Below are positions 31,490-33,952 of a stretch of 33,952 nt of DNA, in pieces; the first letter of the stretch is position 1; the number at the start of each line of letters is the position of its first letter. The position numbers and the translations under genes are program-made. Where the stretch lies: the NCBI GenBank assembly GCA_029001845.1, contig JAREWP010000069.1:1-33952 (forward strand), given 5' to 3'. This DNA comes from Candidatus Magnetocorallium paracelense (GTDB lineage: Bacteria; Nitrospirota; Thermodesulfovibrionia; Thermodesulfovibrionales; Magnetobacteriaceae). The notes below the pieces were generated by a model. It was not told where the DNA came from and searched no databases. It worked only from the letters and a program-made list of their open reading frames with translations.

Positions 31490-32350
31490 TTATTCTCCCC
31501 TGAGTTTTCGTTGTAGTTGTTCAATTAATCTTTCTTTTTCCTCTATTGCTTTATCCTTCTCCATAATCGTCTTATTTTTCTCTTCGATTGTTTTATCTTT
31601 CTCTTCGATTGCCTCCAAATGCTCTCGCTCCTGCTGCTTTATCATCTTTTCCACTTCTTCTTCCAGTTCCAGCTTGTCTCTGAGCTCCTTATCCATTGCC
31701 GCTCTCTCCAGTCTTTGCGCTACCGGCAGGAATTCATCGGGCAGTTCTTCCTTAATCTCCAATATGTACCTGTCATCCCTCTTACAACTCTGGTCAAAGA
31801 CTCTTAATAACCACTCCAATTTTGTTCTTCTTTGAGGTTTTAGTCTGGGTATCTGTATGACATAGCTGTCATGGGTTAATTGCTCTATAAAATCGTTTCG
31901 TTCCTCTATCTCCTCTTTCGTTATAGCGTCAATGTATTCTCGGTTGTTTTTTACGGCCTGTGATTCTATGCCGTTCAGTTCAAATCCGAGAAAGTATATG
32001 GTTATTATAGGCAGAGCGCGTTCTTTACCATTTCCAATCGTCACATCGGGCTTTATATATTGCTCTCCCAGGTATTTTCTGAATCTCATGATATCAGCAG
32101 GATATCCGGCCTTTTGTATCTCTATGAGTACATTTTTATATTCCCCTTTTCTATTCTTTATCCTTACTGCAAAGTCAATTCTGTATATCTGTATTGAATA
32201 CACTCCGAGAAGAGTCGTCCTTTCCTGAGGTCTCAACTCTATCTCGCTTATCTCTTCTTCAATGATTGTGGAAATAATCACTTTCGCTATTCGATTATCT
32301 TCCATTAAATACTTGAATACGGAGTCATATATGGGATTGGCTATTATCAT
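31490..32350 (-). CDS. PD-(D/E)XK nuclease family protein (Rpn/transposase-type) with coiled-coil tail
   Basis: This 286-residue protein belongs to the Rpn/PD-(D/E)XK nuclease family transposase group. NPIYDSVFKYLMEDNRIAK is the family start. Asp59 (YRIDFAV) and Glu77/Gln79 (LIEIQKAG, an E-x-Q form) make the nuclease core. The tail from about residue 225 is a charged coiled coil with a seven-residue repeat (EEKDKTI, EEKNKTI, MEKDKAI, EEKERLI). Members are reported to promote recombination or to be mobile. It heads the operon with the GDT1 and aldo/keto genes. No clear Shine-Dalgarno is seen. Confidence 0.85.
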   Translation of the reverse strand: MIIANPIYDSVFKYLMEDNRIAKVIISTIIEEEISEIELRPQERTTLLGVYSIQIYRIDFAVRIKNRKGEYKNVLIEIQKAGYPADIMRFRKYLGEQYIKPDVTIGNGKERALPIITIYFLGFELNGIESQAVKNNREYIDAITKEEIEERNDFIEQLTHDSYVIQIPRLKPQRRTKLEWLLRVFDQSCKRDDRYILEIKEELPDEFLPVAQRLERAAMDKELRDKLELEEEVEKMIKQQEREHLEAIEEKDKTIEEKNKTIMEKDKAIEEKERLIEQLQRKLRGE

Positions 32351-32878: not shown

Positions 32879-32935
32879 CTACAGTCTATACACCTTAGTA
32901 GTTACAATAAATTCAGAAATTAACAGGAGGAGAAC

Positions 32936-33952
32936 ATGCCTGAAGGTAAGGAGATTAATGATTACAGAAATGAAATCCAGAAGCTGAAGCAGCGTCTTGT
33001 GGAGATCGAGGACAAAAAAGATGTAGATGTACAGATGAGTCCTCCCTCTTCACCGCCCGTATCCGCACCTGCTGAGATTAGAACGAGCCAGGTAATTGAT
33101 GCCGCTCAAAAGCCTGTCACTGCCCCTGAAGCGGCTGTCGGAACGGACGTTGCCGTTCCTCAGGGCCCTGTCGGTCTGGATGTCGGGACGAGCAATTTGG
33201 TAATGACGCAGAATCAGGGCAGTTCTGTTCATGTGGTAAAGCAGTTAAACGCCTTTTTTACGGTGCCGCAATCCAATTTTACAAGAGACATTTTGTTGAA
33301 GAACAATGTACTCTTTGTTGAACACAACGACGAGTATTATATCATCGGGTATTCTGCCGAGGGATTCGCCAATATGTTTAACGCCAACACCCGGAGACCC
33401 ATAGAGAGGGGACTGCTGAGTCCTTTGGAGAACGAGGGGATAATGATCATGCAGTCTCTGATAAACTCTATTCTGCAGAAGCCCAAAAAGTTCGGAGAGT
33501 CCGTCTGTTTCAGCGTACCGGGGGAGCCCGTTGAGGGCGGCGCCTATGTGGCGGGTCATGAGATGATCATAAAGATGTATTTGGAGAGTATGGGGTTTTC
33601 TCCCATATCGATAAACGAGGGACTGGCTGTGGTGATGTCCGAGCTTGCAGAGGATAATTTTACCGGTATAGGAATCAGCATGGGCGGGGGCATGTGTAAT
33701 GTCTGCCTGGCCTATTTGTCAGTGCCTGTCATCTCTTTTAGTATAAGGAAGGCGGGAGACTATATAGATACGATGGTGAGCAGGGATGTGGGAATGTCGG
33801 CGACCAAGATCAAGACGATAAAGGAGGAGTCTCTGGATTTGTCGGTGTTGCCCAGGGACAAGGTGGGAACGGTGTTGCACATCTACTATACCGATCTTAT
33901 AAGCGTGTTGATCCGTACGTTGCAGGAAGTCATATCCTCTTCCGACAGAGTG
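32936..33952 (+). CDS. Actin/MreB-like ATPase with N-terminal coiled-coil and Pro/Ala-rich extension (partial, 3' end outside window)
   Basis: At least 339 codons are open to the window edge. Residues 5-28 are a charged helix likely to form a coiled coil; 35-78 is a Pro/Ala-rich linker. The actin-like core starts with phosphate loop 1, GLDVGTSNLVM (80-90), as in MreB. RRPIERGLLSPLENEG matches the MreB RPMKDGVI segment, INEGLAVV the EP-x-A segment, and RKAGDYID (271-278) the GGDxxD segment. In phosphate loop 2, SMGGGMCN replaces the usual DIGGGTT, so the metal/water-binding Asp is Ser248. AGGAGGAG precedes the ATG. It could be a filament-forming protein or an Hsp70-fold regulator; the missing C-terminus prevents a finer call. 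Confidence 0.82.
   Translation, partial: MPEGKEINDYRNEIQKLKQRLVEIEDKKDVDVQMSPPSSPPVSAPAEIRTSQVIDAAQKPVTAPEAAVGTDVAVPQGPVGLDVGTSNLVMTQNQGSSVHVVKQLNAFFTVPQSNFTRDILLKNNVLFVEHNDEYYIIGYSAEGFANMFNANTRRPIERGLLSPLENEGIMIMQSLINSILQKPKKFGESVCFSVPGEPVEGGAYVAGHEMIIKMYLESMGFSPISINEGLAVVMSELAEDNFTGIGISMGGGMCNVCLAYLSVPVISFSIRKAGDYIDTMVSRDVGMSATKIKTIKEESLDLSVLPRDKVGTVLHIYYTDLISVLIRTLQEVISSSDRV

Follow-up and report, generated by a model that had tools for sequence, protein, structure and literature searches.

Deep-branching magnetotactic bacteria possess a second actin, described under the name Mad28, and studies in other bacteria show that it forms filaments and places magnetosomes (PMC10653835, PMC12713370, PMC12748827). 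Awal et al. (2023) distinguished Mad28 from MamK by Ser in place of Asp in the phosphate-2 motif (xxxSxGxGxx) and by xExx in place of xEPx (PMC10653835). Filament formation in E. coli and AMB-1 was lost when the N-terminal region of RS-1 Mad28 was removed (PMC12713370). Published studies disagree as to whether Mad28 can take the place of MamK: it did so partly in MSR-1 but not in AMB-1. In MamK itself, filament dynamics are lost upon introduction of the D161A mutation (PMC5059902). Another actin, the volactin of the archaeon Haloferax volcanii, polymerizes and depolymerizes in cells, where its role is in cell shape and the change from rod to disk (PMC10869688).

The window, by which we mean the whole 33.9-kb stretch of DNA that was analyzed, is the complete contig C32 of a genome of 6.0 Mb that is 99.6% complete. 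The 5' part of a mad28 gene (339 of about 402 codons) occupies positions 32936–33952 of the plus strand as a frame that stays open up to the last base of the contig; direct reading of the sequence places a ribosome-binding site (AGGAGG, 32925–32930, plus strand) 5 bases ahead of its ATG. A second mad28 copy is truncated likewise at the end of contig C4 (C4:51624-52640). The missing 63 codons were found on two contigs, and the matching 3' part lies at the start of C51 and at the end of C96, its first 255 bases being identical between them. Sixty-two bases (33891–33952, plus strand) are exactly common to the window, the 3' end of C4, the 5' end of C51, and the 3' end of C96, and they mark the repeat where the assembly broke. 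Joining the window to C51/C96 across this exact overlap of 62 bases yields a full-length protein of 402 amino acids. Thus, the gene is truncated at the contig end because the assembly broke inside a near-identical repeat formed by the two mad28 copies. In a comparison of conserved gene order meant to link the window to C51 or to C96, relatives had a FeoB-mad28 locus as well as a mad28-mam locus. The break in the assembly explains why the first-pass annotation saw the sequence after the gene as cut off. The open frame speaks against an artefact or frameshift, as does a core in which no codon change relative to the second copy is non-synonymous.

Profile searches, which had been proposed as a check, returned a single match in Pfam: Volactin (PF25216; E=1.4e-62; residues 79–335), with 212.5 bits against a cut-off of 35 bits. 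The same model matched 38 of 38 aligned members. The NCBIfam scores for MamK (27 bits; cut-off 400 bits) and mreB (17.2 bits; cut-off 365.75) fell far below what these models require, and neither Pfam nor NCBIfam contained a ParM-family match at E up to 1. A separate, true MreB is encoded on C30 (504 bits to PRK13927). Homologs that are 56–62% identical to the window protein occur in 'Ca. Magnetobacterium casense', 'Ca. Magnetominusculus', and other Nitrospirota, with further homologs in Desulfobacterota-type and Bdellovibrionota genomes. In a maximum-likelihood tree whose Mad28 rows do not include those of RS-1, BW-1, and Mbav, all 65 Mad28 rows split from MamK and MreB with branch support of 100/99, and the window protein groups with Mad28-type proteins of magnetotactic Nitrospirota. 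It matches the published Mad28 signature (xxxSxGxGxx and xExx) exactly. Judged by sequence, the window gene is a new member of the published family Mad28 and not a new family. The first-pass description of an actin/MreB-like protein holds, as does that of a coiled-coil head and of a loop with Ser in place of Asp, but the suggestion of a new family does not. That annotation had itself named a clear match to a known, characterized family as the finding that would count against it; Mad28 is such a match, and its Ser loop was already published (PMC10653835).

The nucleotide-binding motifs were compared in an alignment of 65 Mad28, 19 MamK, and 5 MreB rows. The phosphate-1 loop (GLDVGTS, residues 80–86; 33173–33193, plus strand) contains the invariant residues G80, D82, G84, and T85. 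The phosphate-2 loop (GISMGGGMCNV, residues 246–256; 33671–33703, plus strand) contains Ser248, Met253, Cys254, and Asn255. S248, M253, and N255 are each found in 65/65 Mad28 rows, whereas all 19 MamK and 5 MreB rows have Asp in the Ser248 column; this Ser, whose conservation among homologs had been proposed as a check, is thus conserved. Asn255 stands for a second former Asp at the end of the loop. Ser248 aligns with D161 in the sequence of the solved MamK filament, a position counted by hand from the alignment. Loop 1, the Ser and the Met-Cys pair of loop 2, and a GGDxxD-type motif (AGDYID, residues 273–278) are all present as the first reading had them. That reading erred in aligning an EP-x-A segment. 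The equivalent of the MreB/MamK EP is NEG (N227-E228-G229) in the connecting region INEGLAVVM (33611–33637, plus strand), where Glu228 is invariant (65/65) but the Pro has given way to another residue. An actual EP does occur at residues 197–198, in a different part of the protein, and its E197 is variable. The proposed catalytic Glu, E228, and the phosphate-1 Asp, D82, are conserved throughout. At the level of these alignments, the changed nucleotide loop is a signature of the Mad28 family. What appeared to be a new actin is a filament protein already published for its part in positioning organelles, and the unusual loop is the hallmark of the family.

The first-pass annotation had also described a coiled-coil head and linker of about 78 residues, and the predicted structure agrees. 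AlphaFold2 (38 sequences; mean pLDDT 80; pTM 0.66) predicts a head helix at residues 4–27 (32945–33016, plus strand), a disordered Pro/Ala/Ser-rich linker at residues 30–72 (33023–33151, plus strand; pLDDT below 50), and an actin fold from residue 79 onwards (33170–33952, plus strand), with the C-terminal 63 residues off the contig. The heptad scan shows that hydrophobic residues of the helix (I7, Y10, I14, L17, L21, and I24) follow a 3-4-3-4-3 spacing. This strict form is found in 9/65 Mad28 rows. Many long Nitrospirota Mad28 proteins have a looser version of it, which neither the short type nor Desulfurivibrio shows. A sequence search of solved structures with the window protein gave a chance antibody match only, and we therefore turned to fold comparison. 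The best solved structure (VIA-align) is the MamK filament 5ljv (Z 17.1, rmsd 3.6, 240 residues aligned), with MreB about 1 unit behind; the structure prediction suggested as a check thus gave an actin fold closest to MamK. By extension from other bacteria, the N-terminal region of this Mad28 would be needed for filament formation.

In comparing the two mad28 copies of this genome, we noticed a marked difference between head and actin domain. Identity between the heads is 61% for DNA and 51% for protein. Between the actin domains, DNA identity reaches 98.8%, with 11 synonymous and 0 non-synonymous codon changes, a comparison in which the last 63 codons come from one common 3' piece and are identical by construction. 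The 795 bases present in both contigs (the window and C4) are 98% identical, and the DNA upstream of the two genes is unrelated. For the copies in three relatives (G083, G099, and MYR-1), core DNA identity is 85–88%. Identical actin domains under diverged heads, with an abrupt transition where the domain begins, suggest gene conversion. The identity of the actin-domain protein would also fit a need for the copies to polymerize together. With the same actin domain and different heads, the two proteins could co-polymerize yet contact different partners.

Judging from its gene content, the genome appears to belong to a magnetotactic bacterium. On C96, the 3' part of mad28 adjoins genes for MamP (with magnetochrome domains), MamM (over the cut-off), a MamB/MamM-type transporter, and model matches to MamA, MamI, MamE, and MamQ; two MamK genes over the cut-off lie on C39 and C82. 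The C4 copy of mad28 neighbors FeoB/FeoA genes, an arrangement also seen in other magnetotactic Nitrospirota. MamK was found in 11/13 Mad28 genomes versus 27/283 others of the phylum (Fisher p 2e-9) and, in a second phylum, in 7/12 versus 6/383 others (Fisher p 4e-9), genomes being counted regardless of relatedness in both tests. A Mad28-type sequence alone is no proof of a magnetosome role, since some homologs occur without MamK over the cut-off. We are nonetheless confident that the window holds one of the two mad28 copies of a Nitrospirota genome equipped with magnetosome genes, and that Mad28 is a filament actin that works beside MamK and helps to place magnetosome chains. Extrapolating from other bacteria, Mad28 would polymerize into filaments beside MamK, interact with it, and help to position magnetosomes along the side of the cell that has positive curvature.

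Several further observations concern these loci. Twenty-seven Nitrospirota genomes pass the MamK cut-off without a strong Mad28 match (L081-L089, L092, L094, and others), and those of them that were sampled group on a MamK branch of their own, apart from the one that holds the magnetotactic family. In Desulfurivibrio sp. AMeS2 (L034, G302), a Mad28-type gene lies close to two MamK-type genes, but no magnetochrome domain was found there. A small protein of about 140–190 amino acids, akin to the response-regulator-like neighbor of the C4 copy, adjoins mad28 in many Nitrospirota loci (e.g., L016, L018, L037, and L100, and L003:6759-7217 in the genome studied here). Where the mad28 is of the short type, it forms one portion of a longer protein that can reach about 740 amino acids. 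Within the window, the minus strand at 31490–32350 encodes a 286-residue protein that, by eye, has a charged heptad tail and resembles an Rpn/PD-(D/E)XK transposase-type nuclease.

The surroundings of the window copy raise the question of whether it still belongs to the magnetosome system. No magnetosome genes were recognized upstream of mad28 in the 33.9 kb of the window, and none on C51, one of the two possible continuations. Homologs without MamK exist, and haloarchaeal volactin acts in cell shape, so the gene could be imagined as a Mad28-family actin that left the magnetosome pathway and became a volactin-like filament for shape or curvature, lying outside the magnetosome cluster. We consider this improbable. 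The actin-domain protein is identical to that of the C4 copy, with its FeoB/FeoA neighbors typical of magnetotactic Nitrospirota. Moreover, the location of the window copy says little, because Nitrospirota mad28 genes usually or often lie scattered outside the main magnetosome cluster (PMC9840458). Far less credible still is a ParM-type DNA segregation actin borne by a plasmid or other element, in line with the plasmid-like segregation system floated in the first-pass annotation. The protein does have an actin fold, and ParM structures are among the Foldseek matches, but the best fold match is MamK, followed by MreB, and the profile searches described above gave no ParM family. The neighbors in the window look chromosomal and include none of segregation type, and no relatives on plasmids were found other than the haloarchaeal volactins. 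A plasmid segregation system was rejected on these grounds.

What the Ser in loop 2 means for the filament is a separate matter. On the analogy of MamK D161A alone, Mad28 should be a slow filament. However, Ser alone does not show slow turnover, because volactins carry the same Ser and Haloferax volactin is dynamic in vivo. By tblastn, proteins of Haloarcula and Natrinema megaplasmids are 37% identical to the window protein over about 326 residues; they score 447–466 bits against Pfam Volactin and have the same Ser loop as Mad28 (GLGISFGAGMTNVCL). The loop itself was read in these Haloarcula and Natrinema proteins, and the Haloferax genome matches the Volactin model over the cut-off. The earlier suggestion of a scaffold or slow filament may therefore still be right, but Ser as evidence of slow turnover was not accepted. 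Two volactin-type actins of haloarchaeal megaplasmids (L133:4007-5041 and L134:3998-5026) are annotated as hypothetical and have a Ser phosphate-2 loop as in Mad28.

When the tree is rooted on MamK as outgroup, the haloarchaeal volactins and the actins of G244 and G260 nest inside Mad28, beside Bdellovibrionota (98/92), a position for which the program warns of long branches meeting and from which we claim neither transfer nor its direction. G244 and G260 (L068, L069) are Nitrospirota without MamK over the cut-off or magnetochrome matches; their actin is 46–48% identical to haloarchaeal volactin and nearer to it than to Mad28.

One possibility, which we put forward tentatively, is that Mad28 and haloarchaeal volactin constitute one actin family with a Ser phosphate-2 loop (GIS-x-G-x-GM-x-NVC) whose filaments are dynamic without the Asp that MamK needs for turnover (D161), nucleotide being hydrolyzed or released in another way; in bacteria, duplicated copies would keep one homogenized actin domain under varying heads and so form co-polymers that contact different partners. 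A connection between volactin and Mad28 was not found in the literature searched on volactin and on mad28. The Ser loop common to volactins and the homogenized copy pair appear to be the most useful new elements, neither having been found in that literature. Volactins belong to a genetically tractable archaeon and are reported to be dynamic, which makes turnover with Ser at the phosphate-2 position directly testable; the answer would bear on the behavior of Mad28 filaments in bacteria that are hard to grow.

Among described systems, Mad28 is the closest to the window protein. The two have in common the clade, the Ser phosphate-2 loop, the connecting-region-1 Glu without Pro, and the N-terminal extension, as well as several copies per genome and MamK in the same genome. 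Particular to the window copy are an actin domain nearly identical to that of the second copy, a diverged head, and a gene cut by the contig end. MamK resembles it in the actin fold, as the best solved-structure match (5ljv, Z 17.1), and belongs to the same organelle system; it differs in having Asp161 where the window protein has Ser248 and in its intact EP motif. MreB has the actin fold and the general order of motifs but an Asp loop. Volactin (VolA, PF25216) has the GIS-x-G-x-GM-x-NVC loop and, in Haloarcula and Natrinema, the 37% identity over about 326 residues, but it is without the coiled-coil head, and its described role is the rod-to-disk change of shape and not the placement of magnetosomes.
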